This document shows, piece by piece, positions 7,092-53,568 of a DNA stretch of 64,000 bases. Origin of the DNA: Marchantia polymorpha subsp. ruderalis. Lineage: Eukaryota > Streptophyta > Marchantiopsida > Marchantiales > Marchantiaceae. Position numbers and translations under genes: made by a program. Position 1 is the first letter of the stretch, and each line of letters starts with the position of its first letter. The stretch spans positions 20,500,001-20,564,000 of the forward strand of contig AP031354.1 in the NCBI GenBank assembly GCA_037833965.1. Reading direction: 5' to 3'. The notes under the pieces are model-generated. The model ran no database searches. It saw only the letters and a list, made by a program, of their open reading frames with translations, and was not told where the DNA came from.

Positions 7092-7182
7092 CTTCGGAGA
7101 ACTCGGAGTCGGCGAACTCGAGGTCGGCGAACTTCAAGTCGGCAAACTCGGAGTCGGCGAACTCAAGGTCGGCAAACCGGAT
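7092..7182 (+). repeat. Second short block of the 15-bp minisatellite
   Basis: About six units of the same 15-base repeat as at 6412-6838, separated from it by a copy of the conserved dyad module. Confidence 0.85.
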
Positions 7183-7478: not shown

Positions 7479-7507
7479 TATAAAGTAGATCAAGGCGTTT
7501 TGCCTTG
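7479..7507 (+). promoter_or_regulatory. LTR TATA box and adjacent hairpin
   Basis: TATAAAG at 7479-7485 is followed six bases later by the hairpin CAAGGCGTTTTGCCTTG (7491-7507). The same pair occurs in every LTR with an intact end and should mark the U3/R border, with transcription starting about 25-30 bases after the TATA box. Confidence 0.6.
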
Positions 7508-8427
7508 GGACTCTTCCAGTTTCGGAAGTGCAGATCAGGAACTCACTTTCTTGGCGTGTTTGTGCATTTTGGTCCTGGCACCACGTAGAGAAGCTGCAGC
7601 ATAGCGAAGTTACCGTATGTTGTAGTTGAAGGCCTTCGGCTGAATGTTCAGAGCTCGCACCCGGTTAGAGACTTGAGTAGTGCGGATCTGCACCTGCGGG
7701 TGATTTCTGATGCTCAGAGCCGGCTGCGAGTTAGAGACTTGAACAGTTCCCCCTTACTCCTTCGAGTGACATATCCTGATTGTACTCCTACGGGAAGTTT
7801 CCCCTGAATGCCAATGTGAAGTTTCATTACTTCGTGTAAACCTTGGTTTGTAATTCAGGTTGTGTGTGTGTTACTGGATCGTGTTTTCAGTAAGTTCTCA
7901 GTCGGGTCTGCACTCCCTGCGTTTTGTGTGATAGTCGAGGGTGACGTCCACGGCGTACGTAGAGGCTTCGTTCCGAAGTGAGAAGTCCAGTCCGGGTACC
8001 CCCGCTAGTTCCTGGCGGAAGGGCAGTAAAAGCCGGAGTGGGAGGCACTTCCTGCAGAACCTCTGAGTGAACTTGCGAGACACTTTCCTCCTGAAATCCG
8101 AAGCGGAGGTCCTGACCGACCTCCGAGTTGTGCTTTTTGCCAGTTTCAGGTGTGTGTGTGTGTGTGTGTTGAGTGACCAAGCTGTACCGTGCATCCTCCG
8201 AGCATCCTCCGAGTTGAGTTCCTCCTCCGAGTCGAGCCTCCGAGTCGAGCACTACAGTATTTCTGGGAGTGACAGTCGCCTAGAATTCAAACTCTACCAA
8301 AAGTCTGTTAAATGTGACACTTTTACTCTGTGTGTTGCCTCTGTCCCTGTGGGTTCGATCTTTTTACCACCATACTGCAGTTTTAGCCTTTGGTGGGTTA
8401 TTACATAAGGAGCCGACAACTTCTTTT

Positions 8428-8506: not shown

Positions 8507-9448
8507 AAAAGAAGTTGTCGGCTCCTTATGTAATAACCCACCAAAGGCTAAAACTGCAGTATGGTGGTAAAAAGATCGAACCCACAGGGACAGAGGCAAC
8601 ACACAGAGTAAAAGTGTCACATTTAACAGACTTTTGGTAGAGTTTGAATTCTAGGCGACTGTCACTCCCAGAAATACTGTAGTGCTCGACTCGGAGGCTC
8701 GACTCGGAGGAGGAACTCAACTCGGAGGATGCTCGGAGGATGCACGGTACAGCTTGGTCACTCAACACACACACACACACACACCTGAAACTGGCAAAAA
8801 GCACAACTCGGAGGTCGGTCAGGACCTCCGCTTCGGATTTCAGGAGGAAAGTGTCTCGCAAGTTCACTCAGAGGTTCTGCAGGAAGTGCCTCCCACTCCG
8901 GCTTTTACTGCCCTTCCGCCAGGAACTAGCGGGGGTACCCGGACTGGACTTCTCACTTCGGAACGAAGCCTCTACGTACGCCGTGGACGTCACCCTCGAC
9001 TATCACACAAAACGCAGGGAGTGCAGACCCGACTGAGAACTTACTGAAAACACGATCCAGTAACACACACACAACCTGAATTACAAACCAAGGTTTACAC
9101 GAAGTAATGAAACTTCACATTGGCATTCAGGGGAAACTTCCCGTAGGAGTACAATCAGGATATGTCACTCGAAGGAGTAAGGGGGAACTGTTCAAGTCTC
9201 TAACTCGCAGCCGGCTCTGAGCATCAGAAATCACCCGCAGGTGCAGATCCGCACTACTCAAGTCTCTAACCGGGTGCGAGCTCTGAACATTCAGCCGAAG
9301 GCCTTCAACTACAACATACGGTAACTTCGCTATGCTGCAGCTTCTCTACGTGGTGCCAGGACCAAAATGCACAAACACGCCAAGAAAGTGAGTTCCTGAT
9401 CTGCACTTCCGAAACTGGAAGAGTCCCAAGGCAAAACGCCTTGTTCTA

Positions 9449-9455
9449 CTTTATA
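9449..9455 (-). promoter_or_regulatory. TATA box of the 3' LTR
   Basis: TATAAAG on the minus strand, just after the end of the U3 ORF and followed by the CAAGGC/GCCTTG hairpin. In this position it would drive transcription out of the element toward lower coordinates. Confidence 0.55.
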
Positions 9456-9488
9456 CTCTCAAAAGATCCTAACTAGCACTACGCTATC

Positions 9489-12209
9489 CTATCTACCACT
9501 CGCAGCATCTGCGCGAAACCAAACTACTCTACTGCACTCAGCAGATCCGGTGCTGCGCCTCCTGCGCGCCGGACTGCTCCGCGTACTATCTCTACCTTGC
9601 CAGTCTTCCGACCGGCTGCGTAACCCCAGGCGTCGGAGTGCTGCAGTGACTTCCGACTGCAAGTGCGCCATAGTGTCGCGCGCACCCGACAAGAAAGTTT
9701 CTAATTTTCTTGCCACTCGCCGCCGACTCCGACTGTCACCTTCCGTCAATGCCGCCGCCCGAAGCTCGAACTCCCGGAGTGTAACCCTCTCTTGAGCTGC
9801 CACCTCCCAATGGGTGTATCCGTTTAGACAACGAGTCACCCGTGCCGCCAACTCTCCTCGTGCCCTGCAGCTGCTCTCCACCTCTGCCAGTTGCATTTCT
9901 AAATCCGCACGTTGTGTCCTCAAATCCGAGCACTCGGTTTGCAAGTTGCACAACAACTCCTCATCCTCCTTCCGGGCTCTTTGACTTTCCTCTAAGGCGC
10001 GCGTCTGGCGCGCAAGCTCGGCTGCTAGGACTTCGTTCTGTCTCCGCTCCTCCTGCAGTTCCGACTCGATCTTTGCCCGTATTAGTTCGGCCTCCGCCTG
10101 ACTCTTCGTCGCCGCATCCTCCTTCTGCTGCTGCAAGGCTTGGTACAGCTTCTGGGTGACCGCCAGGTGTTGTCGGAGGGCGGTGTTCCTATCCACATAT
10201 ACTCCGCATCTAGAGGCCCACCTTGCCACCTTGCTCCTCGTCCTTCGCCTGATTGTCTCCACATAAGACTGCGGTTTTAAGGCACTTGCGTATTTGGATG
10301 TCTTGCGATCCAGATATCGCAGGAGTGGAACTATCTGTTCGCACAGCACCCCTGTTGGCGTTTTCTGCACCGAATCCTCTTCTTGCTCTTCCGAGCTCGT
10401 CTCATCCTCAGTCTCGAGGATCTCAGTCGCCACTGAATCCCTTGGCGACTCCCTGGAACTGTGGCGCGCAGCAGCTTCTGCTGCGACTGCTGCTCCACTG
10501 CCTGCTAAAATATCCAGGGCAGTGGGAGATCCCACTGCTTGAGCCCCTGTTCCGGCTCGATCTTCGGTTTGTGAAGGGGTCGACGCCGCAGTGACTTTTG
10601 TCACTCTTGCACCGCCCGCTTCTGCTGCCTGTCCTTCCGGCGCAATCTGCGCGGAAGGTGTCCTTGCTGAAGGTGCGTCCGCCGAAGGCGTCCGCACACT
10701 GGTCGTTGGCCCCATCCGTCTCGCAGTCGGCGAATCCGGCTGACTCTCTGTTGTCCGACTCGCAGTCGGCCGACCAGCAGTTGTCCGACTGGGAGTCGGA
10801 TACACCCTGCGCGTCTTGACTCCACTTGGCCTGCTTGTTGGGGGCGTTCTTCCAGAAGTGCCTTCCGCCGAAGACGACCCTCTGAGGATTGTTGGCTCGT
10901 CAGCCAAACTCTCTTCCGTTTCCGGCCTGCTGTCCGGTTCAACGCGCCGTTCAGTTGGCCTTCCTTCCGTCTGTCGACCTTCAGTCATCCGACTCGCAGT
11001 CGGCCGGCTGTCAGTCCGTCCATCTCCTCCCGAAGGCCGTGGTGCCTTCTGTGCAGAGGTTTCTGCCGTCTTCCCTAGAACCTGAGCGATTATCTCTTCC
11101 TGTGTGAGATTCCGCCGGGTCGGAGTTCGCCTGGTCTCCTCAGTAACAGTTGGCATCCTGCGTGCCCTCTGTTTTGGTCGACTATGAGGCTCGGGGGTGG
11201 GCCGACCACGAGTCGGCGCAGCTGGTACTTCCGGCTGCCTGTCCTCAGGTCTCTCATCCCACTTCCGCTTGCGCGGAATGCGCTCACTTCGACGTTCTTC
11301 TGCTGCTCTGGCTGGAGCCGGAGCCGGAGGCGTACTGGCAGGTTCCTCGTCCGGATCCGTGTCTACTTCGGCCTCCCTCGAATATCTACCTGGATAAGAC
11401 CGGCTCAGCTGCGGAAACCGAGTTTTCTCAGCATTCGTCAAACATCCCATCGCCCGGTAAAACACGATTAAGTAAGGCGATAGATGATTGAGCGTTCCTC
11501 CCCTCTCTTCTTGCGCATGTTGGCGCGTCACCTTCCACAGGAGCCGTGCCCAATGCACCGGAGCTCCTGACAACACTAGCTCCACGAACTCTACCTGCCA
11601 ACCATGCATGTAAGCGGTCTTGGTCGGCTGCAATATCTGCAGCAATGCTGTCGCGACATTTCTCCGCAATCGATCCTTGTAATCCCGAGTCCGGAAACCG
11701 TTCTTGGGATGTCTGGCCACTTTGAAGAGCTCATTGTAAGAGACTTCTTCCTCCTGGGACACCTTCACGCTATCGGCCTCGAAGAGGAGATCCCCTTCCT
11801 CGCCGGCACACCTGCCCAACACCTGCGCCCAATTGCAAATTTCCCATCTCTCTGGGTGTGGGCGAAATCCGCGAGAAGGCTTGTGTCTCTCTTGCAGATA
11901 CTCGCGCACCATCTCCGGACACGTCCAATTCCACCCCCAGAGGAGAAAATCGAGCTTCAGCCTCGTCAGCACATCTTGAAATGCGCGTAGACCGATCTGC
12001 GGCACCCTGAGTGGAGACACTCGCAGTTGGGGAACCTTCGACATTGCGTTGCCTGCACACACAAACGTTCTTTCGCTCACTCTCTCACAATCGCCACTGC
12101 GCGTCGGCCACTCAAGCACTGACTGCTCACTCTCTCTGCGCTCGTTCAAGATCGCTACTCCCAATTCTTTCGAGGTCCGCCAAGATCCTTGTGCAACTCG
12201 TCTCCGCAC
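9489..12209 (-). CDS. U3-encoded accessory protein, type A (3' LTR copy)
   Basis: An open frame of 906 codons lies wholly inside U3. The likely start is the Met at residue 56 (codon at 12044-12042, context aacgcaATGtcg), because similarity to type B and to the copy at 24698 is best from there on. Residues about 56-270 form a conserved domain (LDFLLWGW, RCAGE, RTRDYKDR, GGTLNHLSP). Residues 280-620 are low-complexity, rich in Pro, Thr, Arg and Glu. Residues about 640-870 are a charged coiled coil, followed by a basic tail. There is no signal peptide or membrane segment. The N-terminal domain may be related to the plant transposon-protein domain seen in Athila-group proteins, but that is a guess. 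The two LTR copies encode identical proteins. Confidence 0.85.
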   Translation of the reverse strand: MRRRVAQGSWRTSKELGVAILNERRESEQSVLEWPTRSGDCERVSERTFVCAGNAMSKVPQLRVSPLRVPQIGLRAFQDVLTRLKLDFLLWGWNWTCPEMVREYLQERHKPSRGFRPHPERWEICNWAQVLGRCAGEEGDLLFEADSVKVSQEEEVSYNELFKVARHPKNGFRTRDYKDRLRRNVATALLQILQPTKTAYMHGWQVEFVELVLSGAPVHWARLLWKVTRQHAQEERGGTLNHLSPYLIVFYRAMGCLTNAEKTRFPQLSRSYPGRYSREAEVDTDPDEEPASTPPAPAPARAAEERRSERIPRKRKWDERPEDRQPEVPAAPTRGRPTPEPHSRPKQRARRMPTVTEETRRTPTRRNLTQEEIIAQVLGKTAETSAQKAPRPSGGDGRTDSRPTASRMTEGRQTEGRPTERRVEPDSRPETEESLADEPTILRGSSSAEGTSGRTPPTSRPSGVKTRRVYPTPSRTTAGRPTASRTTESQPDSPTARRMGPTTSVRTPSADAPSARTPSAQIAPEGQAAEAGGARVTKVTAASTPSQTEDRAGTGAQAVGSPTALDILAGSGAAVAAEAAARHSSRESPRDSVATEILETEDETSSEEQEEDSVQKTPTGVLCEQIVPLLRYLDRKTSKYASALKPQSYVETIRRRTRSKVARWASRCGVYVDRNTALRQHLAVTQKLYQALQQQKEDAATKSQAEAELIRAKIESELQEERRQNEVLAAELARQTRALEESQRARKEDEELLCNLQTECSDLRTQRADLEMQLAEVESSCRARGELAARVTRCLNGYTHWEVAAQERVTLREFELRAAALTEGDSRSRRRVARKLETFLSGARDTMAHLQSEVTAALRRLGLRSRSEDWQGRDSTRSSPARRRRSTGSAECSRVVWFRADAASGR

Positions 12210-13396
12210 TCTCTACTCTCACTGCAGGTCGCTCCGCCCTTGCGCGTAATCTTGGAACTGGAAATTGCAAAGTCAAGAATGAGAGAATGAGACTGGAGCG
12301 CAGTCTTTTCTTCTCCGATTTCAAGAACGTCCAACGTTCTTACTGGTTGCAACGTACGCAGCCGGCTATACGGCTTAACGGTTCGCCCTTTGCATGCGCG
12401 AATTCACGTCTCCGCCTTGCGCGCATTCGCATGCTTAAACGTTGAATTCTCCCGCCGCCGCCACCTTCCGGACTCGAGTCCGCTGCAGGGTATACGTCGG
12501 CCCTGTTGTCTTTTCCTAACCCGCCCTTCTCCGGAGGCGTGTCGCCGCTGGTGCGTTCATTATCCGTCGGCGCCTTGCTGGAGGCGCACATCCAGCCGGA
12601 GCGAATTACGCCGGCGCGCAGTCGTACCGCCTATTTTGTCCTTTACGCCTCGTCCGTTGCTTCCAGCGCATATCCGTCAGCGCAACTCGTGCCAGCGCAT
12701 CCGGCCGTCAGCGCCACGTCGGAGGCGTACATCCGACCGGCGCTTTCCTTCCATGAACAGCCGCCAAAGGCGCTTCCGACTCTGAGTTGGTTTCCTCCTG
12801 TGAGCGCGTGATTCCGCCGAAGGCGCATCGCCGAGGGCGTACGGGAATCCTTTCCGGCTGTGAACCCTAGCGCGAACGGCGCATGTCCGGCTACGAGTTT
12901 TCCGACGCTCATAACTTCTCCATTCCTGATCCATCTCCGGCGCTCTTGGGCTCGTTAGAACGAGCGTCCCGAGCTCTTTCTAATGCAACTTCAACCAACT
13001 GGATCTACCGTGTATCCCGATTGTTATGAAGGTTTTCCCTTTCCGCGCTAGCGGCGCTTCGCCGAAGGCGCACTCATGGTCGGATGCCTTTAGAGGTCCG
13101 GGCCCTTCTCCTGACGTCTTTAGCAAAACCTCCTCCTGAGGTGTCTGCGCCGGAAGCGTAGCTTCCTTGTACGCTAGAGGCGCGTGAGTAGAGACACCTC
13201 AAAAAGAAGCCTTTGCCGAAGGCGCCGAAGACGTTGGCGTTGGTACATCCGACTACGTGATTCTTTGTGCCCTCGTGACGATCTCATCAATCCACTCTAT
13301 TTAGCGTACCCTTCTCTAGCTACAAACACTGCTTTGGTACTAGTTTTCTAAAATTGTTTAAATTCTGCAAAAAAAACAAAAAGTGTGTTACCACAT

Positions 13397-13408
13397 GCCC
13401 CCCTCCTC
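13397..13408 (-). other. Polypurine tract of the complete element
   Basis: Minus-strand gaggaggggggc directly upstream of the 3' LTR start at 13395, and 24 bases after the pol stop. There is no room for an env-like third ORF in the internal region. Confidence 0.9.
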
Positions 13409-13432
13409 AATTGTGAGCGCCCACGCGAACAT

Positions 13433-16174
13433 TTACACGTGGTATTTCTTCAGACGCCATCCGTTCACGCGGGTGCCTAACCATTCTCCCGTCAGTTCTG
13501 CGAGTTGGATGGATCCATTTGGAAAAACTTCTATCACCTTGTAAGGTCCCATCCACCTCAAGTGGAGCTTGCCTGGAAATCTAGCATGTCTGCTATCGTA
13601 TAGCAGAGCCAAATCGCCCTTCTCCAGCAGTACTGGTTTGAGCCTTCGATCGTACTTCTCCTTCCGCCTGAGTTGTAATTGCTTTGTCCGATCTTCGGCC
13701 TCTTGACGTCTTTCCTCCAGTGCCATTACCTCTTGCAGTCGATATGCCTGACTTTCTTCCGCGTCCAGCCTTCTCTGATCTAAGGTCCTCTTGGTAGGTA
13801 TCTCGAATTCGATGGGTAAGATCGGATGCTGCCCATAAACTAGGAAGTAAGGTGTTTGCCTGGTGGTGACTTTTTCTGCCGTTCTATATGCCCATAAGGC
13901 GGCCGGTAGCTTGGTATCCCAGTCATGAGCATGGTTTACAGTCACTTTGAGGAGTATCTTACAGAGTAATCCATTGGACTTCTCTGTCAGACCATTTGCC
14001 TTGGGGTTGTATGGAGTAGTCTTCCGATGCTTAATCTGGAAGTGCCGCGTCAAACTTTCTATCACCTGATTCAGAAAGTGCGTTCCTCTGTCACTGACTA
14101 TTTCTAGTGGGCACCCGTAGCGGGTGATGATGGATTCGAATAGGAACCGTGCTACTGCGGCTGCGTCGTCGTGCCTTGTGGCTTCTGCCTCCACCATCTT
14201 GGTCGCATAGTCTGTTGCTACCAATATGTAGCGCCTGCGCGTGCCTTTAGTGACAGGTTGTATTGGTCCCACGAAGTCGATCCCCCACTTTTCAAATGGT
14301 GCCAATGGCATTATTGGTGTAAGAGGCCATCTCGTGGTCGGAGTCGGCCTTCCCGTCCTCTGGCAGCTGTCGCATTTGCGAACGTAGTCGTGTACATCTT
14401 TGAACACCGTCGGCCACCAGTATCCTGCATTCACAATTTTGGTCACTGTGTTTCTGGTGGCGTAGTGACCACCAGCGTCTTCTGTGTGCATGGCTTTGAC
14501 AACTCGCGGTACTTCAGACTCCTCTAGACATCTGCACAACCTCTCGTCTGCCATTTTCTTGAACAAGACCCCTTGTTGGAGCTGGTAAGGTCCCGCTTTA
14601 TGAACGAAGACTGTGCGCTGCTCCGCATCCAATCCTTCCGGACATTGGAGTGTGAGCAGAAACCTGTATAAGTCCGCGTACCTGGACTCGTGGCTGGCGG
14701 ACAACTGAAAAAGTTGTTCGTCGGGAAAATCATCCACTACTTCCTCCTCTATGGGTTCGGTCCATAGTCGGGAGAGGTAGTCCGCGTTCTCATGGTGAAC
14801 GCCTTTCCGTGTCTGTACAGTGTAGGTGAATTCCTGCAGCAGTAGTACCCACCTGGCAATTCGTCCGGACAGATCCGCCTTCTTCACTAGGTGCTGTAAG
14901 GCGTAATGATCTACATGAAACACGAACTCATAGCAGATCAAATAATGTCGGAACTTCTTACAGGAGTACACCATTCCCAACGCCTCCCTCTCAGTTGTCG
15001 TGTACTTCTTCTCTGCTGCTGACAACTGACGACTCGCGAAGTAAATCGGGTAGTCTTTCTTGTTGTCGTCCTTCTGACTGAGAACCACCCCGATTGCAAA
15101 CGCCGACGTGTCTACATAGACATGGAAAGGTCTGTTCCAATCCGGACTTCTCAGAACCGGAGCAGTCGTCAGTTTGGCTTTGAGCGTTTCAAAGGCCAGC
15201 TGTTGCTCCTTGCCCCACACATAGGGTTCATCCTTCTTAAGCAGCTTCGTCAGATCGGCTGCCAAGATGGCGTACATATTTATGAACCTTCTGTAATAAC
15301 CTACATGGCCAAGGAAGGCCCTCAACTCACGCAGATTCGTTGGCGGCTGCAGTTCGAGAATAATCTTCACCTTCTCTACATCCACTGCAATGCCATCGGA
15401 CGAAACTCGGTGCCCCAGCAGGATTCCGCTGGTCATGAAGAAAAAACATTTCTCAGGGTGTAAGGACAAGCTGCTTTCCCTACACCTGTCGAACGTTTGC
15501 CGAAGATGGTTAAGGTGCTCCGACCTCTTACCGAAGACACAAAAGTCGTCGATGAAAATTTCTAGGAACTTCCTCAGGTGCTCTTGGAAGATGTCTGTCA
15601 TCATCCGCTGGAACGTCGCTGGCGCGTTGCACAGACCGAACGGCATCTTGTGATAAGCATAGGTTCCCCAGTCGGTTGTGAAGGTTGTTTTGTCCTTGTC
15701 CTGTTCCCTGATGGACACCTGGTTGTAGCCGGAAAATCCGTCTAGGAAACTGTAGCATTCATGCCCTGCTACATGGTCTAAAATAGAGTCCGTGAAAGGA
15801 AGAGGGTGATGGTCCTTCCTCGTTGCTGCGTTCAGCTTTCGAAAGTCCTGGCACACCCGGATCTTACCCGTCAGTTTCTTGGGCACGATCACGATAGGCG
15901 ACACCCACTCGCTACTAAGTACCGGGTAGATGATTCCTGCGCTCAGGTACTTATCGATTTCGTCCTTCACCAATAATGAATATTTTGGGTTGAGCCTGTA
16001 TTGGCGTTGGCGAACCGGAACTGCCTCGTCCAACAAGTCGATCCTGTGCTCTCCATACCTTGCAGGTATGCCTTTCATGTCTTCAATCTTCCATGCGAAG
16101 ACATCCTCATACTGGCGAAGAAACGCCTGTACCGTGTTCAACTCTTCGCCTTGTACCTGGCTTGACACCTTCAA
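13433..16174 (-). CDS. Pol: reverse transcriptase, RNase H, integrase
   Basis: About 913 residues from the first start-like codon (a TTG). The frame is open from the UAG at 16276-16274, so the natural product is a Gag-Pol readthrough fusion. RT holds the catalytic FIDDF (Asp at about 209 and 210), close to the FMDDF of the Athila group. RNase H begins near 350 (VYVDTS). The integrase zinc finger has its cysteines at 601 and 604. The D,D-35-E triad is at about 633, 695 and 731, and a C-terminal domain with GPYKVIE follows. All catalytic residues seen are intact. This would copy RNA to DNA and integrate it. It stops just before the polypurine tract. Confidence 0.95.
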   Translation of the reverse strand: MKVSSQVQGEELNTVQAFLRQYEDVFAWKIEDMKGIPARYGEHRIDLLDEAVPVRQRQYRLNPKYSLLVKDEIDKYLSAGIIYPVLSSEWVSPIVIVPKKLTGKIRVCQDFRKLNAATRKDHHPLPFTDSILDHVAGHECYSFLDGFSGYNQVSIREQDKDKTTFTTDWGTYAYHKMPFGLCNAPATFQRMMTDIFQEHLRKFLEIFIDDFCVFGKRSEHLNHLRQTFDRCRESSLSLHPEKCFFFMTSGILLGHRVSSDGIAVDVEKVKIILELQPPTNLRELRAFLGHVGYYRRFINMYAILAADLTKLLKKDEPYVWGKEQQLAFETLKAKLTTAPVLRSPDWNRPFHVYVDTSAFAIGVVLSQKDDNKKDYPIYFASRQLSAAEKKYTTTEREALGMVYSCKKFRHYLICYEFVFHVDHYALQHLVKKADLSGRIARWVLLLQEFTYTVQTRKGVHHENADYLSRLWTEPIEEEVVDDFPDEQLFQLSASHESRYADLYRFLLTLQCPEGLDAEQRTVFVHKAGPYQLQQGVLFKKMADERLCRCLEESEVPRVVKAMHTEDAGGHYATRNTVTKIVNAGYWWPTVFKDVHDYVRKCDSCQRTGRPTPTTRWPLTPIMPLAPFEKWGIDFVGPIQPVTKGTRRRYILVATDYATKMVEAEATRHDDAAAVARFLFESIITRYGCPLEIVSDRGTHFLNQVIESLTRHFQIKHRKTTPYNPKANGLTEKSNGLLCKILLKVTVNHAHDWDTKLPAALWAYRTAEKVTTRQTPYFLVYGQHPILPIEFEIPTKRTLDQRRLDAEESQAYRLQEVMALEERRQEAEDRTKQLQLRRKEKYDRRLKPVLLEKGDLALLYDSRHARFPGKLHLRWMGPYKVIEVFPNGSIQLAELTGEWLGTRVNGWRLKKYHV

Positions 16175-16267
16175 GCCTTTACCTGGACTGAGCTGCAGTT
16201 CGCAGCAATCACTCGGGTCAACAATCCCCTCTGTGTGACTGATTTCGCTTCTGCCCAGTCCGGCTGC

Positions 16268-16276
16268 TAGTTGCTA
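16268..16276 (-). promoter_or_regulatory. Leaky stop UAG-CAA-CUA between gag and pol
   Basis: The gag-protease ORF ends in TAG and is followed in the same frame by CAA CTA and about 33 more sense codons up to the nominal pol start. This fits the CAR-YYA context that promotes stop-codon readthrough in tobamovirus-type plant viruses. Gag-Pol would be made by occasional readthrough, not by frameshifting. Confidence 0.75.
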
Positions 16277-19111
16277 TTCCTCATCCGGATACACCTCGTC
16301 TCTTTCCTCCTCAATGGAGCAGCAAGTGACGTAGCCCACAAAGTCTTCCGACGTTTCGGTCTCTGAAGTGCATGTTGAGCTGGTCTCCCCTCCGGTTGTG
16401 TAACCGGAGGTGGTGGAAGGTGTTTCGCCCTCATGGGGTACCTTGGTCCACGGTACGGTAATGACAGTCGGAGGGTCCGCAGGGCTACGGAACTGTAATC
16501 TCTTCCTACTCCAGTCACACCTTGCTTTGGCTTCGTATAGCCACGGTCTGCCAAGCAGCACATCATAACCTTTCTTCATCAGAGGTTGCAGTATTATGTA
16601 GGACAGTTGAAAGTCCACTCCTCCAATGTTGGTTCTCACATTGCTCAACATTCCTAGTGGCATTCTGCGTGTTTGATCGGCCAGTCGCAATACTCGGGAT
16701 GTAGGCTCGAAGGTCTGGAACCCCAAGGAGTTCGCTGTCTCCTCGGTCATGATATTCACGCCCGAGCCGGAGTCCACTGGTACCTTCTGAATGACGCAGC
16801 CTCCGATCTCTACTTCGATCTCTGGAGGTCCCAGGTCTCCTCCTTCCACTCTGTACACAGCCGGAAGTTTCTCTTTTCGGGGTTTGCGTGGTCGGCGCAA
16901 CGAAAGCATCAGCATCCTCCTGTACGTCTTATTGTCTTCCAACAACTGGTGGAAGGAAATATTTGCCCTCTGGCTCCCCATGTCTTTCACTATGTCGTAG
17001 GGAGTGCTGGAAGTCACGGCCGGAAGTTTCCCTGTACTCGCGGTCGGAAGGGGTGTAGGGGGCCTAACTGCCTTCCGGTCGTCGGATGTCATTCCGGCGC
17101 CCAGTGCTTCCTTGATGAGGTGACTCACCTCATCTTTGATGTCCGGAAGGTAATCTCGAGTCCGGAACTCTTCTGAATACCTGTCCGCCTTTTCTGAGTT
17201 CTGCTCCGGCTGGGTGTTTCTCATAGCCGGAGGTGTACTTGGCGTTCTCCTTTGGCCTTCTCTAACTTCTTTAGACTTCCTCCTCTCTTCCCTACGCTCG
17301 AGGCGGCGAGTGTCCTCATGGCCTTCTCCTCTCCTCTTCGAACTTCGGGTTTCTACCCGGCCGCACATTACTTCTTCCTCTGGCCATACTTCGTCTCTTT
17401 CAGCTGGGTCCAGACTCAGTTCTACCTGGTTGACCTGCACCTCTTCCTTGCCAGGTGTTGATACGAAACGCACGGCTGGCCTAGGGATTTGGGGCTGGTC
17501 ACATTCAGCTGCTGTATGTCCGGACTTCTTGCAATTGCTGCACAATGGTGCATACCCCATTGGCTTCCTCGGGTGGGGACAACTTGGCGCGTAATGCCCC
17601 ATGTCTCCGCAGTTGTAGCAACCATCGAATTGTGGTCGAGGTCGGTGATTTCCTGTGTGATTTCCTGGAGGTGCCATGCGCCTTGGTGGGAGTGTACCCG
17701 CCATTTCCCTCGGAACAAAGCGCGGTATATGCACCGGTGGGTTCGGAGTTGTAGCTGGAGCTGTCTGTACCGAGTAGGCGGTGTCCTCCACCTGCTCAGC
17801 ATAATACATAGGCGGCTCAGCATAATACATGGGGTTCTCCCACTGTGGTGCCCATTCGACCGCATTCACTGGGTAAGATGGCCTCGCGGACATGCACTCC
17901 GTGTTGGCATGTCCCACCTGTCCGCACGTAGTACACCAGAGATTCGCTCGTTGTCTTGCAGGTGATTTACGTCGGTCTTGGCCTCCCACTACATGAACTT
18001 TCAGGTCCGCAAAATTCTTCACCAGGTTGTCTACCTTGGCTGCGATGTCCCCTTGAGTCTTCACTGGGATTCCCTTACCTCGATCCTTCTTCTTGATCGC
18101 ACTGCGTTTCTTCTTCCGTCTTTCTTCTTCTGAAGATGACGAGTCCTCTTCCTCTTCCGAGGAAGAACTTGATTCGGAGGAGCTTGATTCTTCTGTCGAG
18201 GAAGGCGAGTTCCTTCTCTTCCGACGTCCGCCTTGCGACTTCTTCTTCGTCGACCGTCGGTCGCGTCTTCGAGTGTCAAGGGTTGACGTCTCAAAGGTCT
18301 CCGCGGAAGCTATCACATCTTGGATTGTGTCAGTCTTGCCTCTCCTACAGAAGGTCTCCATTTCTCTTGGGAGCCCTGTCACATACCAATCCACTGCCTG
18401 TTGTACCGAATACGGTTCTCCCGGGCCTGTCTTCGGAATTCGATCTAGGAGGTCTTGGAATCTCTCAGTGTAGTCTCGAAGATTCTCCTTCCGCTCGCGT
18501 CGAAGATTTCGAAGCCGGGTCAGAACTCGACTGTCATATCCGAGTTCGCGGAACCGCTTCAGAAACTTTTCCTTGAGCTGAGCCCAGGTCCGGATGCCAG
18601 TGGGGTCGGTGCTCTCATGGTTGTACCAGCTACGCGCTCGTTTGCGTAGCAGGCTAGGAAAGATTCGTAATCTGTCTTCATCACTGGTCTCACGATTGGC
18701 GATGGAGACAGACTCGAAGAGCTTTATGTATGAATCTGCATCATCGTCGTCGCCCGTTCCCGTGTATCTTGGATACGAATGTTTGGTGGTAGGTTGGGAA
18801 AACACCTGGCGGAGATTGGCTTGATGTTCTGCCATCGGTGATCCTGTCGACGGACTGATCCTAGGTTGGCCAAACTCAGGAAGAGTTCCTGTCGGAGGGA
18901 TGTCCAATAGAATCGTTAGCTCAATGCTCTCGGTAGGTGAACTGGAACACCTTTGTCTTCCAGTAGTCGGTGATGGCGATCTTTCTGCAGAGTCCTCACC
19001 GGGAGTCTTCTTTTTAGTTCGCCGTTTTGTTTCCACGGCTTTTTCTGAATCTCGACGGAGTTTCCGTGTGGCTCTCGCACTCAGGTTTCCCACACTATCG
19101 CTCGTCGACAT
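16274..19111 (-). CDS. Gag with aspartic protease
   Basis: 945 codons, starting 44 bases after the PBS. Residues about 120-255 form the capsid-like gag domain (ARSWYNH, LKRFRELGY). An Arg/Ser/Glu-rich linker follows. Three CX2CX4HX4C zinc knuckles lie at about 393-406, 498-511 and 524-537. A retropepsin active site, VDSGS, lies near 780. The protein should form the particle, bind the RNA and cleave itself. Three knuckles are more than the one usually found in plant Ty3 elements. The C-terminus is acidic and ends at the leaky UAG. The ORF is intact, in keeping with a young element. Confidence 0.93.
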   Translation of the reverse strand: MSTSDSVGNLSARATRKLRRDSEKAVETKRRTKKKTPGEDSAERSPSPTTGRQRCSSSPTESIELTILLDIPPTGTLPEFGQPRISPSTGSPMAEHQANLRQVFSQPTTKHSYPRYTGTGDDDDADSYIKLFESVSIANRETSDEDRLRIFPSLLRKRARSWYNHESTDPTGIRTWAQLKEKFLKRFRELGYDSRVLTRLRNLRRERKENLRDYTERFQDLLDRIPKTGPGEPYSVQQAVDWYVTGLPREMETFCRRGKTDTIQDVIASAETFETSTLDTRRRDRRSTKKKSQGGRRKRRNSPSSTEESSSSESSSSSEEEEDSSSSEEERRKKKRSAIKKKDRGKGIPVKTQGDIAAKVDNLVKNFADLKVHVVGGQDRRKSPARQRANLWCTTCGQVGHANTECMSARPSYPVNAVEWAPQWENPMYYAEPPMYYAEQVEDTAYSVQTAPATTPNPPVHIPRFVPREMAGTLPPRRMAPPGNHTGNHRPRPQFDGCYNCGDMGHYAPSCPHPRKPMGYAPLCSNCKKSGHTAAECDQPQIPRPAVRFVSTPGKEEVQVNQVELSLDPAERDEVWPEEEVMCGRVETRSSKRRGEGHEDTRRLERREERRKSKEVREGQRRTPSTPPAMRNTQPEQNSEKADRYSEEFRTRDYLPDIKDEVSHLIKEALGAGMTSDDRKAVRPPTPLPTASTGKLPAVTSSTPYDIVKDMGSQRANISFHQLLEDNKTYRRMLMLSLRRPRKPRKEKLPAVYRVEGGDLGPPEIEVEIGGCVIQKVPVDSGSGVNIMTEETANSLGFQTFEPTSRVLRLADQTRRMPLGMLSNVRTNIGGVDFQLSYIILQPLMKKGYDVLLGRPWLYEAKARCDWSRKRLQFRSPADPPTVITVPWTKVPHEGETPSTTSGYTTGGETSSTCTSETETSEDFVGYVTCCSIEEERDEVYPDEE

Positions 19112-19155
19112 TCACCGAGCATTGCTGCTCAAGGTTTCTGGTGTTGACGCACTGT

Positions 19156-19172
19156 CCCCGGCAGCGGCGCCA
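19156..19172 (-). other. Primer-binding site of the complete element
   Basis: TGGCGCCGCTGCCGGGG on the minus strand, 22 bases after the 5' LTR end at 19195 and 44 bases before the gag start. The match to the plant tRNA-Asp 3' end places the family near Athila/Tat. The LTR-PBS gap is unusually long. Confidence 0.85.
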
Positions 19173-20088
19173 AAAAGAAGTTGTCGGCTCCTTATGTAAT
19201 AACCCACCAAAGGCTAAAACTGCAGTATGGTGGTAAAAAGATCGAACCCACAGGGACAGAGGCAACACACAGAGTAAAAGTGTCACATTGAACAGACTTT
19301 TGGTAGAGTTTGAATTCTAGGCGACTGTCACTCCCAGAAATACTGCAGTGCTCGACTCGGAGGCTCGACTCGGAGGAGGATCTCAACTCGGAGGATGCTC
19401 GGAGGATGCACGGTACAGCTTGGTCACTCAACACACACACACACACCTGAAACTGGCAAAAAGCACAACTCGGAGGTCGGTCAGGACCTCCGCTTCGGAT
19501 TTCAGGAGGAAAGTGTCTCGCAAGTTCACTCAGAGGTTCTGCAGGAAGTGCCTCCCACTCCGGCTTTTACTGCCCTTCCGCCAGGAACTAGCGGGGGTAC
19601 CCGGACTGGACTTCTCACTTCGGAACGAAGCCTCTACGTACGCCGTGGACGTCACCCTCGACTATCACACAAAACGCAGGGAGTGCAGACCCGACTGAGA
19701 ACTTACTGAAAACACGATCCAGTAACACACACACAACCTGAATTACAAACCAAGGTTTACACGAAGTAATGAAACTTCACATTGGCATTCAGGGGAAACT
19801 TCCCGTAGGAGTACAATCAGGATATGTCACTCGAAGGAGTAAGGGGGAACTGTTCAAGTCTCTAACTCGCAGCCGGCTCTGAGCATCAGAAATCACCCGC
19901 AGGTGCAGATCCGCACTACTCAAGTCTCTAACCGGGTGCGAGCTCTGAACATTCAGCCGAAGGCCTTCAACTACAACATACGGTAACTTCGCTATGCTGC
20001 AGCTTCTCTACGTGGTGCCAGGACCAAAATGCACAAACACGCCAAGAAAGTGAGTTCCTGATCTGCACTTCCGAAACTGGAAGAGTCC

Positions 20089-20117
20089 CAAGGCAAAACG
20101 CCTTGTTCTACTTTATA
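20089..20117 (-). promoter_or_regulatory. 5' LTR core promoter: TATA box and hairpin
   Basis: TATAAAG (20117-20111) is followed by the hairpin CAAGGCGTTTTGCCTTG (20105-20089). It is expected to start the genomic RNA near 20090, giving R plus U5 of about 0.9 kb before gag. The U3 ORF lies upstream of this promoter. It can therefore be present in genomic RNA only through the 3' LTR copy, or be expressed from a separate promoter near the LTR start. Confidence 0.6.
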
Positions 20118-20150
20118 CTCTCAAAAGATCCTAACTAGCACTACGCTATC

Positions 20151-22871
20151 CTATCTACCACTCGCAGCATCTGCGCGAAACCAAACTACTCTACTGCACT
20201 CAGCAGATCCGGTGCTGCGCCTCCTGCGCGCCGGACTGCTCCGCGTACTATCTCTACCTTGCCAGTCTTCCGACCGGCTGCGTAACCCCAGGCGTCGGAG
20301 TGCTGCAGTGACTTCCGACTGCAAGTGCGCCATAGTGTCGCGCGCACCCGACAAGAAAGTTTCTAATTTTCTTGCCACTCGCCGCCGACTCCGACTGTCA
20401 CCTTCCGTCAATGCCGCCGCCCGAAGCTCGAACTCCCGGAGTGTAACCCTCTCTTGAGCTGCCACCTCCCAATGGGTGTATCCGTTTAGACAACGAGTCA
20501 CCCGTGCCGCCAACTCTCCTCGTGCCCTGCAGCTGCTCTCCACCTCTGCCAGTTGCATTTCTAAATCCGCACGTTGTGTCCTCAAATCCGAGCACTCGGT
20601 TTGCAAGTTGCACAACAACTCCTCATCCTCCTTCCGGGCTCTTTGACTTTCCTCTAAGGCGCGCGTCTGGCGCGCAAGCTCGGCTGCTAGGACTTCGTTC
20701 TGTCTCCGCTCCTCCTGCAGTTCCGACTCGATCTTTGCCCGTATTAGTTCGGCCTCCGCCTGACTCTTCGTCGCCGCATCCTCCTTCTGCTGCTGCAAGG
20801 CTTGGTACAGCTTCTGGGTGACCGCCAGGTGTTGTCGGAGGGCGGTGTTCCTATCCACATATACTCCGCATCTAGAGGCCCACCTTGCCACCTTGCTCCT
20901 CGTCCTTCGCCTGATTGTCTCCACATAAGACTGCGGTTTTAAGGCACTTGCGTATTTGGATGTCTTGCGATCCAGATATCGCAGGAGTGGAACTATCTGT
21001 TCGCACAGCACCCCTGTTGGCGTTTTCTGCACCGAATCCTCTTCTTGCTCTTCCGAGCTCGTCTCATCCTCAGTCTCGAGGATCTCAGTCGCCACTGAAT
21101 CCCTTGGCGACTCCCTGGAACTGTGGCGCGCAGCAGCTTCTGCTGCGACTGCTGCTCCACTGCCTGCTAAAATATCCAGGGCAGTGGGAGATCCCACTGC
21201 TTGAGCCCCTGTTCCGGCTCGATCTTCGGTTTGTGAAGGGGTCGACGCCGCAGTGACTTTTGTCACTCTTGCACCGCCCGCTTCTGCTGCCTGTCCTTCC
21301 GGCGCAATCTGCGCGGAAGGTGTCCTTGCTGAAGGTGCGTCCGCCGAAGGCGTCCGCACACTGGTCGTTGGCCCCATCCGTCTCGCAGTCGGCGAATCCG
21401 GCTGACTCTCTGTTGTCCGACTCGCAGTCGGCCGACCAGCAGTTGTCCGACTGGGAGTCGGATACACCCTGCGCGTCTTGACTCCACTTGGCCTGCTTGT
21501 TGGGGGCGTTCTTCCAGAAGTGCCTTCCGCCGAAGACGACCCTCTGAGGATTGTTGGCTCGTCAGCCAAACTCTCTTCCGTTTCCGGCCTGCTGTCCGGT
21601 TCAACGCGCCGTTCAGTTGGCCTTCCTTCCGTCTGTCGACCTTCAGTCATCCGACTCGCAGTCGGCCGGCTGTCAGTCCGTCCATCTCCTCCCGAAGGCC
21701 GTGGTGCCTTCTGTGCAGAGGTTTCTGCCGTCTTCCCTAGAACCTGAGCGATTATCTCTTCCTGTGTGAGATTCCGCCGGGTCGGAGTTCGCCTGGTCTC
21801 CTCAGTAACAGTTGGCATCCTGCGTGCCCTCTGTTTTGGTCGACTATGAGGCTCGGGGGTGGGCCGACCACGAGTCGGCGCAGCTGGTACTTCCGGCTGC
21901 CTGTCCTCAGGTCTCTCATCCCACTTCCGCTTGCGCGGAATGCGCTCACTTCGACGTTCTTCTGCTGCTCTGGCTGGAGCCGGAGCCGGAGGCGTACTGG
22001 CAGGTTCCTCGTCCGGATCCGTGTCTACTTCGGCCTCCCTCGAATATCTACCTGGATAAGACCGGCTCAGCTGCGGAAACCGAGTTTTCTCAGCATTCGT
22101 CAAACATCCCATCGCCCGGTAAAACACGATTAAGTAAGGCGATAGATGATTGAGCGTTCCTCCCCTCTCTTCTTGCGCATGTTGGCGCGTCACCTTCCAC
22201 AGGAGCCGTGCCCAATGCACCGGAGCTCCTGACAACACTAGCTCCACGAACTCTACCTGCCAACCATGCATGTAAGCGGTCTTGGTCGGCTGCAATATCT
22301 GCAGCAATGCTGTCGCGACATTTCTCCGCAATCGATCCTTGTAATCCCGAGTCCGGAAACCGTTCTTGGGATGTCTGGCCACTTTGAAGAGCTCATTGTA
22401 AGAGACTTCTTCCTCCTGGGACACCTTCACGCTATCGGCCTCGAAGAGGAGATCCCCTTCCTCGCCGGCACACCTGCCCAACACCTGCGCCCAATTGCAA
22501 ATTTCCCATCTCTCTGGGTGTGGGCGAAATCCGCGAGAAGGCTTGTGTCTCTCTTGCAGATACTCGCGCACCATCTCCGGACACGTCCAATTCCACCCCC
22601 AGAGGAGAAAATCGAGCTTCAGCCTCGTCAGCACATCTTGAAATGCGCGTAGACCGATCTGCGGCACCCTGAGTGGAGACACTCGCAGTTGGGGAACCTT
22701 CGACATTGCGTTGCCTGCACACACAAACGTTCTTTCGCTCACTCTCTCACAATCGCCACTGCGCGTCGGCCACTCAAGCACTGACTGCTCACTCTCTCTG
22801 CGCTCGTTCAAGATCGCTACTCCCAATTCTTTCGAGGTCCGCCAAGATCCTTGTGCAACTCGTCTCCGCAC
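20151..22871 (-). CDS. U3-encoded accessory protein, type A (5' LTR copy)
   Basis: The frame and the 906-residue product are identical to those at 9489-12209. The likely start is again the internal Met (codon at 22706-22704). It lies upstream of the element's own promoter. Two intact identical copies in a young element fit recent duplication by reverse transcription. Conservation of the N-terminal domain and C-terminal coiled coil between types A and B, while the middle diverges freely, argues that the protein is under selection. The function is unknown. Confidence 0.85.
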   Translation of the reverse strand: MRRRVAQGSWRTSKELGVAILNERRESEQSVLEWPTRSGDCERVSERTFVCAGNAMSKVPQLRVSPLRVPQIGLRAFQDVLTRLKLDFLLWGWNWTCPEMVREYLQERHKPSRGFRPHPERWEICNWAQVLGRCAGEEGDLLFEADSVKVSQEEEVSYNELFKVARHPKNGFRTRDYKDRLRRNVATALLQILQPTKTAYMHGWQVEFVELVLSGAPVHWARLLWKVTRQHAQEERGGTLNHLSPYLIVFYRAMGCLTNAEKTRFPQLSRSYPGRYSREAEVDTDPDEEPASTPPAPAPARAAEERRSERIPRKRKWDERPEDRQPEVPAAPTRGRPTPEPHSRPKQRARRMPTVTEETRRTPTRRNLTQEEIIAQVLGKTAETSAQKAPRPSGGDGRTDSRPTASRMTEGRQTEGRPTERRVEPDSRPETEESLADEPTILRGSSSAEGTSGRTPPTSRPSGVKTRRVYPTPSRTTAGRPTASRTTESQPDSPTARRMGPTTSVRTPSADAPSARTPSAQIAPEGQAAEAGGARVTKVTAASTPSQTEDRAGTGAQAVGSPTALDILAGSGAAVAAEAAARHSSRESPRDSVATEILETEDETSSEEQEEDSVQKTPTGVLCEQIVPLLRYLDRKTSKYASALKPQSYVETIRRRTRSKVARWASRCGVYVDRNTALRQHLAVTQKLYQALQQQKEDAATKSQAEAELIRAKIESELQEERRQNEVLAAELARQTRALEESQRARKEDEELLCNLQTECSDLRTQRADLEMQLAEVESSCRARGELAARVTRCLNGYTHWEVAAQERVTLREFELRAAALTEGDSRSRRRVARKLETFLSGARDTMAHLQSEVTAALRRLGLRSRSEDWQGRDSTRSSPARRRRSTGSAECSRVVWFRADAASGR

Positions 22872-24062
22872 TCTCTACTCTCACTGCAGGTCGCTCCGCC
22901 CTTGCGCGTAATCTTGGAACTGGAAATTGCAAAGTCAAGAATGAGAGAATGAGACTGGAGCGCAGTCTTTTCTTCTCCGATTTCAAGAACGTCCAACGTT
23001 CTTACTGGTTGCAACGTACGCAGCCGGCTATACGGCTTAACGGTTCGCCCTTTGCATGCGCGAATTCACGTCTCCGCCTTGCGCGCATTCGCATGCTTAA
23101 ACGTTGAATTCTCCCGCCGCCGCCACCTTCCGGACTCGAGTCCGCTGCAGGGTATACGTCGGCCCTGTTGTCTTTTCCTAACCCGCCCTTCTCCGGAGGC
23201 GTGTCGCCGCTGGTGCGTTCATTATCCGTCGGCGCCTTGCTGGAGGCGCACATCCAGCCGGAGCGAATTACGCCGGCGCGCAGTCGTACCGCCTATTTTG
23301 TCCTTTACGCCTCGTCCGTTGCTGCCGGCGCATATCCGTCAGCGCAACTCGTGCCAGCGCATCCGGCCGTCAGCGCCACGTCGGAGGCGTACATCCGACC
23401 GGCGCTTTCCTTCCATGAACAGCCGCCAAAGGCGCTTCCGACTCTGAGTTGGTTTCCTCCTGTGAGCGCGTGATTCCGCCGAAGGCGCATCGCCGAGGGC
23501 GTACGGGAATCCTTTCCGGCTGTGAACCCTAGCGCGAACGGCGCATGTCCGGCTACGAGTTTTCCGACGCTCATAACTTCTCCATTCCTGATCCATCTCC
23601 GGCGCTCTTGGGCTCGTTAGAACGAGCGTCCCGAGCTCTTTCTAATGCAACTTCAACCAACTGGATCTACCGTGTATCCCGATTGTTATGAAGGTTTTCC
23701 CTTTCCGCGCTAGCGGCGCTTCGCCGAAGGCGCACTCATGGTCGGATGCCTTTAGAGGTCCGGGCCCTTCTCCTGACGTCTTTAGCAAAACCTCCTCCTG
23801 AGGTGTCTGCGCCGGAAGCGTAGCTTCCTTGTACGCTAGAGGCGCGTGAGTAGAGACACCTCAAAAAGAAGCCTTTGCCGAAGGCGCCGAAGACGTTGGC
23901 GTTGGTACATCCGACTACGTGATTCTTTGTGCCCTCGTGACGATCTCATCAATCCACTCTATTTAGCGTACCCTTCTCTAGCTACAAACACTGCTTTGGT
24001 ACTAGTTTTCTAAAATTGTTTAAATTCTGCAAAAAAAACAAAAAGTGTGTTACCACAGGGAT

Positions 24063-27000
24063 ATGCGCCGTCAGCAATAGACGAGGCAGAACGGACAAAA
24101 CAAGCGGTACGAATACGCGCCGGCGTAATTCGCGCCGACTGGATGTGCGCCTCCAGCAAGGCGCCGACGGATAAGGAACACGCCAGCGGCGACACGCCTC
24201 CGGTGATGGTCGGGTTAGGAAAAGACAACATAGCCGACGTATACACTGCGGCGAACTCGGGTCCGGAAGACGGTGGCGGCGGGAGAATTCAACATTCACG
24301 CATGCGAATGCGCGCAGTGCGGAGACGTGAATTCGAGCATGCAAGGGCGAACCGTTAGGCCGTATAGCCGGCTGCGTAAATTGTAACCAGTAAGAACGTT
24401 GGACGATCTTGAATTCGGAGAAGAAAAGACTGCTCTCCAGTCTCATTCTCTCATTCTTGATTTTGCGATTTCCAGCTTCCAAGATTACGCGCAAGGGCGG
24501 AGAGACCTGCAGTGAGAGGAGAGAGTGCGGAGACGAGTTGCGCAAGGATCTTGACAGACCTTGGAGAGAATTTGCGAGTAGCGAACTTGAGCGCAAGAAG
24601 AGAGAGTGATTGCAGTCAGTGCTGGAGCGGCCGACGCGCAGCGGCGATTGTGAGAGAGCGAGCGGAGGGGAGAACGTCTGTGTGTGCAGGAAACGCAATG
24701 TCGAAGGTCCCCCAGCTGCGAGTGTCTCCACTCAGGGTGCCGCAGATCGGCCTACGCGCATTCCAAGATGTGCTGACAGGGCTGAAGCTCGATTTCCTCC
24801 TGTGGGGATGGAACTGGACATGTCCGGAGATGGTGCGCGAGTATCTGCAGGAGAGACACAAGCCCTCACGCGGATTCCGTCCACATCCAGAGAGGTGGGA
24901 CATTTGTGACTGGGCGCAGGTGTTGGGCAGGTGTGCCGGCGAGGAAGGGTATCTCCTCTTCGAGGCCGATAGCGTGAAGGTGTCCAAAGAGGAAGAAATC
25001 TCCTACAATGAGCTTTTCAAAGTTGCCAGGCATCCCAAGAACGGTTTCCGGACACGGGATTACAAAGATCGATTGCGGAGAAATGTCGCGACTGCATTGC
25101 TGCAGATATTACAGCCGACCAAGACCGCTTACATGCATGGTTGGCAAGTAGGATTTGTGGAGCTAGTGTTGTCAGGAGCTCCAGTGCATTGGGCACGGCT
25201 CCTGTGGAAGGTGACACGCCAACATGCGCAAGAAGAGAGAGGAGGAACCCTCAATCATCTTTCGCCTTACCTGATTGTGTTTTATCAGGCGATGGGATGT
25301 TTGACAAATTCAGAGCGGACACGGTTTCCGCTGCTGACCCGGAGCTATCCAGGTAGATACTCGCGGGAGGCCAAAGTAGACACGGATCCGGACGAGGCAC
25401 CTGCCAGTCCGCCTCTGGCTCCGCCCCAAGCAAGAGCAGCAGAAGAACGTCGAAGTGAGCGCGCTCCGCGAAAGCGGAAGTGGGATGAGAGACCTGAGGA
25501 CAGGCAGCCGGAAGTGCCAGCTGCGCCGACTCGTAGTCGGCCAACCAACGAGCCTCACAGCCGACCGAAACAGAGGGCACGCAAAGTGCCAACTAGTACT
25601 GAGGAGACCGGGCATACTCCGGTCCGGCGGAGTATCCTGCCCACGCAGGAGGAGATAATCGCGCAGATTTTGGGGAAGTCGGCAAATACCTCTGCGCTGA
25701 AGGCACCAATGCCTTCGGAAGAAGACATACGGACTGACAGTCGGCCGACTACGAGTCGGGCGACTAAAGGTCGACAAACGGAAGGAAGGCTGACGGAGCG
25801 GCGCGTTGAACCGGACAGTAGGCCGGAAGCAGAAGGGAGTTTGGCTGACGAGCCAACAACCCTCAGAGGGTCGTCTTCGGCGGAAGGCACTTCTGGGAAA
25901 ACGCCGCCAGCAAGCAGGCCAAGTGGAGTGAAGACGCGCAGGGTGCATCCGACTGCCAGTTGGACAACTGCTAGTCGGCCGATTGCGAGTCGGTCAACAG
26001 AGAGTCGGCCAGATTCGCCGACTGCGAGACGGACAGGGCCGGCGACCATTGTGCGGACGCCTTCGGCGGACGCACCTCCAGCGAAGACACCTTCCGTGCA
26101 GATCGCGCCGGAAGGGCAGGCAGCAGAAGCGGGCGGTGCAAAGGTGACAAAAGTCACTGCGGCGTCGACCCCTTCGGAAACCGAAGATCGAGCCGGAACA
26201 GGGGCTCAAGCAGTGGGATCCCCCACTGCCTTGGATATTGTAGCAGGGAGTGGAGCGGCAGTCGCGGCGGAAGCTGCTGCGCGCCACTGTTCCAGGGAGT
26301 CGCCAAGGGATTCGGTGGCGACTGAAATCCTCGAAACGGAGGATGAGACGAGCTCGGAAGAGCAGGAAGCGGACTCTGTGCAGAAAACGCCAACAGGGGT
26401 GTTGTGCGAGCAGATAGTTCCACTCCTGCGATATCTGGATCGCAAGACATCCAAGTACTCGGGTACCGGAAAACTGCAGTCTTACGTGGAGACTGTCAAG
26501 CGCAGGACGAGGAGCAAGGTGGCCACTTGGGCCTCTAGGTGCCAAACATTGCAGGATAGGAACGCTACCCTCCAACAGCACCTGGCGGTCACGCAGAAGC
26601 TATACCAAACCTTGCAACAGCAGAGGGAGGATGCGGTGACGAAAAACCAGGCGGATGCCGAGCTAATACGGGCAAAGATCGAGTCGGAATTGCAGGAAGA
26701 GCGGAGACAAAACCGCATCTTAGCAGAAGAGCTTGCGCGCCAGAAGCGCGCCTTAGAAGAAAGTCAAAGTACACGCACGGAGGATGAGGAATTGTTGCGC
26801 AACTTGCAATCCAAGTGCGCGGATTTGAGGACGCAGCGCACAAATGCGGAAATGCAGCTAGCAGAGGTGGAAGGCAGCTGCCGGGCGCGAGAAGAGTTGG
26901 CGACGCGGGTGCTCACTGTCTAAAAGGATACGCCCATTGGGAGGTGGCAGCTCAAGAGAAGATCACACTCAGGGAGTTCGAGCTTCGGGCGGCGGCATTG

Positions 27001-33100: not shown

Positions 33101-33105
33101 ATTGT

Positions 33106-53533: not shown

Positions 53534-53568
<35 letters not shown>

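Follow-up and report, generated by a model that had tools for sequence, protein, structure and literature searches.

Can a long terminal repeat (LTR), normally thought of as control sequence, also be the home of a selected protein gene? The question is raised by a 64,000-nucleotide stretch of the Marchantia polymorpha subsp. ruderalis genome (contig AP031354.1, positions 20,500,001 to 20,564,000; hereafter the window, with coordinates counted from its first base), which contains a Ty3/gypsy LTR retrotransposon, here called element A, on the minus strand at 8529-24057. An earlier note on this DNA had claimed that both LTRs of the element are about 4.87 kb long, that each contains the same 906-codon open reading frame (ORF) upstream of the LTR promoter, and that the internal region has no accessory or env-like ORF. 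All of this was borne out: the LTRs measure 4863 and 4867 bp, the frame is present in each, identical between the two and upstream of the TATA position, and gag-pro and pol are the only internal frames of at least 200 amino acids in the coding direction. On balance we favour the reading that the frame represents a third gene, under selection, in a Ty3/gypsy family of Marchantia; it would lie in the 3′ unique region (U3) of the LTR since the polypurine tract (PPT) lies upstream of it.

An identical gene in both LTRs of element A

Alignment of the LTR pair places the 5′ LTR at 19195..24057 (4863 bp) and the 3′ LTR at 8529..13395 (4867 bp), both on the minus strand, beginning with TGTGGTAAC and ending with GGTTATTACA. 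Five substitutions and a single 4-bp indel separate the two, and the insertion is therefore recent. The frame is open from 22871 in the 5′ LTR and from 12209 in the 3′ LTR, and a start at codon 56, with a protein of ~851 amino acids, is likely more plausible than the full 906 codons, because it is within ~45 bases of codon 56 (GCAATGTCG) that DNA similarity with other families sets in, and the codon-56 methionine is the first residue of four annotated Marchantia proteins (P0006, P0008, P0011, and P0013). The surroundings of this codon (AACGCAATG or similar) recur among families. From the conserved ATG, the 851 codons span 20151..22706 in the 5′ LTR and 9489..12044 in the 3′ LTR, again on the minus strand.

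The PPT, GAGGAGGGGGGCA (13396..13408, minus strand), abuts the 3′ LTR and is hence upstream of the gene. The A LTR has only one TATAAA. Its start lies 34 bases past the end of the gene both in the 5′ LTR (20112..20117, minus strand), where the palindrome CAAGGC-GTTTT-GCCTTG comes next, and at the same place in the 3′ LTR (9450-9455, minus strand). Because this sole TATAAA follows the gene, genomic RNA should start behind it; the gene then very probably belongs to U3 and precedes the genomic-RNA promoter. The genomic RNA would then read R (repeat)-U5 (5′ unique region)-primer binding site (PBS)-gag-pro-pol-PPT-U3-R, with the gene present once, behind pol. Reverse transcription would copy everything behind the PPT into both LTRs, so a provirus would have two copies of the gene and a solo LTR one. 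The simplest account of this layout would be that an extra sense gene behind pol is placed downstream, and not upstream, of the PPT.

Related genes in other LTRs of the window

The window also contains a second kind of LTR, type B, and the earlier note's proposal that a related ORF sits in every copy, with the N- and C-terminal domains conserved between types A and B and the middle not, was supported. Pieces of the gene occur in five of five type B LTRs, of which two are clean solo LTRs with target duplications. One of these, B1 (39465..44858, plus strand, 5394 bp, duplication GTTCT), carries an intact gene at 40963-43848; in the other, B2 (48392..53762, plus strand, duplication GCCCT), the gene starts at 49912 and meets a premature stop at 52636-52638 (992 codons). 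Gene remains are found in the 3′ parts of two minus-strand LTRs, at 36454..39466 (the rest, at 44859-47135, is inferred from alignment) and 33105..35504 (the rest probably at 53773-56522), and at 2-1919 of a minus-strand LTR cut by the window edge (1..3418). Amino-acid identity between A and B1 is 58% in the N domain, 39% in the middle, and 54% in the C domain. Two type B elements fetched from elsewhere in the genome have their own gag-pol beside type B LTRs. An LTR related to that of element A, here A′, was split by the insertion of element A (5232-5957 with 24058-28214, plus strand); LTR alignment places its frameshifted gene at 24698..27255 on the plus strand.

Directly downstream of the gene, TATAAA and the palindrome recur in A, A′, the four uncut type B LTRs of the window, and two further type B genes, L009 and L011. 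In B1 and B2 the palindrome takes the form CCAGGC..GCCTGG, with one pair changed on both sides, the single such pair among 33 distinct sites; the rest vary little.

Purifying selection on the gene

Pairs of A and B are saturated at synonymous sites, and the pairs usable for ratios of nonsynonymous to synonymous substitution rates (dN/dS) were A with A′ (a broken copy) and type B with type B. Differences between type B genes at codon positions one, two, and three number 8/8/44 (B1-L009) and 8/4/41 (L009-L011). For the N domain, middle, and C domain, respectively, dN/dS is 0.054/0.389/0.144 (B1-B2), 0.025/0.300/0.045 (B1-L009), 0.028/0.246/0.143 (B1-L011), 0/0.14/0.16 (L009-L011), 0.055/0.364/0.133 (B2-L009), and 0.086/0.385/0.346 (A-A′); pol gave 0.066 between two type B copies. 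The selection that the earlier note had read from the pattern of conservation thus agrees with N- and C-domain ratios that are far lower than 1, in A-A′ and type B pairs alike, and we regard it as almost certain that the U3 gene is under purifying selection.

Recurrence across the genome

The genome searched comprises 241 Mb in nine contigs, with the window on contig 5. A core-promoter motif, written so that it leaves out the B1/B2 form, had 2734 exact matches against 0 for a reversed control. We sampled 20 of the first 21 listed sites, all on contig 1 (site 1097248 was omitted) and chosen regardless of the gene. Gene-derived sequence lies upstream of 19 of the 20 sites, in keeping with the expectation that related LTRs elsewhere carry the gene; an N-domain match is present at 15, and at 15 the best C-part match ends 24-56 bases before TATA. 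The one site without gene remains is in L046. Among the best-scoring copies listed, which are biased to close copies, the frame is free of stops in 48 of 50 copies of type A and in 39 of 44 of type B.

A further 16 divergent loci (L013-L028) were hand-picked for long or unbroken frames, so that their match to the gene is by choice. Eleven extend, without a change of orientation, as far as the 3′ end of the LTR, and TATAAA stands behind the gene in 11; these are not the same 11, as L013 and L014 have the LTR end without TATAAA and L018 and L023 the reverse. L019, L024, and L025 are interrupted or end early. In a deep lineage (P0015/P0068) represented by two loci, one copy lies between two A-type LTR starts. 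Many Marchantia proteins annotated as hypothetical match the U3 gene, of which they appear to be copies or fragments.

Tandem arrangements were also observed on contig 6, where five A LTR gene copies follow each other at steps of exactly 10662 bases (10769932-10815300), a tandem array of neighbouring elements that share LTRs, and three type B copies stand at 11188-base steps (8282776-8308286).

A non-autonomous partner without the gene

Head to head with element A, and in one insertion with it, lies a 2448-bp LTR without an ORF (5958..8405, plus strand), which belongs to a non-autonomous partner; the target duplication GGGAT (5953-5957 and 24058-24062) flanks the partner LTR and element A together. 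The partner is a 3.08-kb derivative that keeps the core promoter, R-U5, PBS, leader, and PPT and lacks both gag-pol and the U3 gene. Forty genome matches to the distinctive part of its LTR were scored, 39 at 98-100% identity (one of them partial) and one at 93%, and several copies stand in tandem at steps of ~3080 bases, among them a run of four on contig 5 and one of six on contig 9. In one partner unit (L049), the LTR begins to match the A LTR at position 3907, where the stop codon of the gene has its last base, and the match reaches the LTR end at 98.6% identity; ahead of 3907 the A LTR is matched by short pieces only (1-46 and around 413-496). The internal part of this unit, 637 bp, joins the PBS, the leader, and the beginning of gag to the last 39 bases before the 3′ LTR, including the PPT.

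As the partner does without it, the U3 gene is dispensable in cis. The core promoter, R, U5, and the replication sites apparently suffice as cis elements; like gag-pol, the U3 gene can presumably be provided in trans, or else the partner manages without it. The abundance of a partner that lacks the gene suggests that the U3 protein probably acts in trans.

The composite insertion itself (5958-24057) contains a perfect palindrome with arms of 1009 bases (7445-8453 and 8481-9489) and 27 bases between them. The partner LTR and element A join head to head via their PBS regions, and the arm that ends at 9489 stops at the gene's last base, the base at which the L049 match begins. The composite may have arisen by template switching between co-packaged RNAs.

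A possible leader and the expression of the gene

Among 22 LTR sequences, the start codon was located by pattern in 16; with A′, B2, L009, and L011 omitted as near-duplicates, 12 loci that represent different families remained for a count of upstream ATGs. In the 200 bases that precede the start codon, 12 ATGs occur against 25.6 expected from dinucleotide shuffles, and in the preceding 200 bases 17 against 30.7, with as few in 1 of 1000 shuffles for each of these two windows; the next two 200-base windows are not depleted (24 against 20.9 and 36 against 20.6 expected). Within the nearest 200 bases, ATG is the rarest of the six orders of its letters (12 against 19-92). Because depletion over ~400 bases is what a scanned 5′ leader would leave, we think the gene is, with somewhat better than even probability, translated from its own capped mRNA, begun ~400 bases upstream inside U3.

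The protein and its possible role

Searches with the 906-residue frame and with a profile scored the best 8000 candidates. Within that scope every named relative belongs to M. polymorpha: so do all 13 matches to the frame and 13 of 13 in the N-domain search, and of 78 profile matches 73 are named M. polymorpha and five are unnamed. One of the five, P0068, is 94% identical to a copy in this genome. Other liverworts may simply be missing from the protein database. Fourteen family members searched against Pfam at E up to 10 gave only weak and mutually inconsistent matches, and sequence searches of PDB, NCBIfam, and PHROGs gave no usable match. We found no membrane segment, the highest 19-residue hydrophobic mean being 1.22 in A and 1.14 in B1. 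The N and C domains are basic, with clusters such as RKRK and RRRR, and the C part is rich in heptads; one stretch of 42 residues has 75% hydrophobic residues at the heptad a and d positions, and the coiled coil was judged from this count of hydrophobic heptad positions.

The likeliest role, by analogy with MMTV (mouse mammary tumour virus) Rem (PMC3840357) and Cer1 CERV (PMC10309623), would be that of a nuclear trans-acting regulator. From its sequence features we suggest, tentatively and with confidence short of even, that the protein is a nuclear coiled-coil regulator of element transcription, silencing, or RNA export and not a structural or envelope-like one.

Weighing the alternatives

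Several observations count against a selected U3 gene with a regulatory product. The third-position excess consists mostly of transitions, although those in the N domain of B1-B2 number 4, 2, and 25 by codon position and CpG decay by itself would be expected to affect positions one and three equally. Transversions are few in the N and C domains, where they point in the same direction, and in the middle they favour no codon position. The LTR 5′ flank divergence of B1-L009 is 2.5% against a dS of 6.4%, and ratios of dN to flank divergence for this pair are milder (N 0.07, C 0.16, middle 0.56). In all versions of the measure, constraint is stronger on the N and C domains than on the middle. The majority of sampled copies are broken, and the whole frame is open at two of the 20 sites, which are probably the LTRs of one element. 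TATAAA is absent behind the gene in five of the 16 divergent loci, two of which keep the LTR end and three of which are interrupted or end early. The shuffles behind the ATG counts ignore the kinship of the 12 families, which makes those counts optimistic, and a regulator function is supported by no homologue in Pfam, NCBIfam, PHROGs, or PDB. One alternative is that the frame is a captured or fossil one without function, open since the copies are young and the LTR is large and GC-rich. Type A copies are indeed near-identical, so that their open frames alone prove little, and GC-rich sequence yields long open frames on both strands. Against this stand the third-position excess and the domain-wise dN/dS in type B pairs, the presence of the same gene in loci ~65-80% alike in DNA, and the largely conserved start codon and TATA; we consider a fossil frame highly improbable and count it as refuted unless the selection signal is a mutational artefact. 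A chance open frame was rejected, because selection is combined with recurrence in LTRs sampled regardless of the gene.

Two further alternatives accept the gene and differ on its expression or its product. It might be made only from genomic RNA that is spliced and runs on into the 3′ LTR; the copies in 5′ and solo LTRs would then be silent passengers. The nearest precedent, MMTV Sag, uses splicing (PMC3840357), the A LTR has no TATA upstream of the gene, and an acceptor-like TGTGTGTGCAG lies 8 bases before the ATG in A and A′. However, an acceptor beside the ATG leaves the ~400-base ATG depletion unexplained, and TGTGTGTGCAG is absent at that place in type B, while other families vary; this route is unlikely, in our view. 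The protein might instead be structural or associated with the particle (as a partner of capsid or nucleocapsid, an envelope-like protein, or a movement protein) and be supplied in trans. Its divergence between A and B is near that of gag (identity of 58% for the N domain, 63% for gag, and 90% for pol), and a coiled coil would suit assembly, yet the hydrophobic means given above leave no hydrophobic segment, the database searches supplied no usable match, and the basic clusters are of nuclear type. We consider a structural role rather improbable; an envelope-like protein in particular was rejected, or at least lowered in probability, for want of a membrane segment. Returning to the U3 gene as a trans-acting regulator with its own mRNA, each LTR could be a self-contained cassette, in which an upstream U3 promoter would drive the trans-factor gene and the genomic-RNA promoter would follow its stop codon. 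The regulator would persist after gag-pol is lost, because recombination deletes internal regions and leaves solo LTRs, and elements without the gene would live on the factor of others; this extension is speculative, and we lean against its holding in full.

Comparison with known elements

The MMTV sag gene reportedly lies in U3, and its product is said to be about one third as long as the U3 protein described here. Pfam showed no relation to Sag. As in the MMTV type of arrangement, a complete ORF stands in both LTRs of element A, upstream of a genomic promoter that was placed by its TATA box. The earlier note had offered sag as the parallel, and the comparison is apt in that both are accessory proteins encoded inside an LTR; Sag is encoded in the 3′ LTR and is a type 2 transmembrane glycoprotein made from a spliced RNA (PMC3840357), unlike the protein here, which has no membrane segment and belongs to a plant Ty3 element without env. 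Extra ORFs of plant LTR retrotransposons are placed upstream or downstream of gag-pol, in the internal region, by a survey of such elements (PMC7264820). Athila and Bagy2, like element A, have a third gene in sense orientation that follows pol in genomic RNA, and differ in that theirs is in the internal region and the present one lies downstream of the PPT, inside both LTRs (PMC7264820). Long LTRs (~3 kb) and a fast-evolving extra ORF, ORF0, also characterize rice Retrosat2, RIRE3, and RIRE8, in which ORF0 is described as upstream of the gag-pol ORF and is treated apart from the LTR (PMC3485330). Cer1 CERV of C. elegans, a nuclear accessory protein of an LTR retrotransposon, offers a functional model for the regulator reading; it comes, unlike what we propose here, from a spliced mRNA (PMC10309623). 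In the open-licence literature searched, within the portions accessible, we found no plant element with a gene inside its LTR.

The gene would mean that U3 houses a selected protein gene in a large group of plant elements, which alters what a solo LTR can do. MMTV sag would have an independent counterpart in a model plant with routine RNA mapping and tagging, and the autonomous element, the solo LTR, and the derivative without the gene allow a three-way comparison of what an accessory protein gives a retrotransposon. Large retrotransposon derivatives (LARD) and terminal-repeat retrotransposons in miniature (TRIM) are types of non-autonomous LTR elements without coding genes. The 3.08-kb partner resembles them in keeping the LTR, PBS, leader, and PPT without coding genes, and differs from them in that its autonomous partner has a U3 gene, which the derivative also lacks.

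Classification of element A and other features of the window

Element A has TG..CA LTRs, a PBS, a PPT, and the order gag-protease-reverse transcriptase (RT)-RNase H-integrase, as is typical of Ty3/gypsy elements, and the 5-bp target duplications typical of that group are seen in GTTCT and GCCCT (solo LTRs) and GGGAT (the composite insertion). Gag (Retrotrans_gag, with zinc knuckles) and the aspartic protease, identified from the ORF list and domain matches, occupy 16274..19111 on the minus strand, and pol (RT, RNase H, and integrase, by domain matches) follows at 13433..16273 on the same strand. No chromodomain model of the chromovirus type matches pol at E up to 0.1, RNase H models match a single region (pol residues 320-449) and not the second one of Tat/Ogre/Retand, and no envelope-like extra ORF lies between pol and the 3′ LTR.

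Gag-pro and pol form a single frame, split in element A by TAG-CAA-CTA at 16274-16276; the divider is TAG-CAA-TTA in two type B elements fetched (L010 and L012). We take this TAG-CAA context to be the stop-codon readthrough context known from tobamoviruses.

The PBS (19155..19172, minus strand) is complementary at 18 of 18 bases to the 3′ end, with CCA added, of Marchantia tRNA-Asp(GTC); the tRNA-end pattern occurs at four genomic places, and the one place fetched is a tRNA-Asp. The PBS starts 22 bases past the LTR end, and these bases (19173-19194) are absent from the solo LTRs with target duplications. End processing normally removes fewer than 22 bases.

Between the type B LTRs, the stretches 35505-36453 and 47136-48391 resemble sequence behind the L051 copy of the deep P0015/P0068 lineage and perhaps belong to another family. 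An AT-rich tandem repeat of ~118 bases lies on both sides of the nested GC-rich elements (59837-61165 and 31346-32236), and a 252-base tandem repeat with 96% matches occupies 63109-64000, within a 357-codon open frame on the minus strand.

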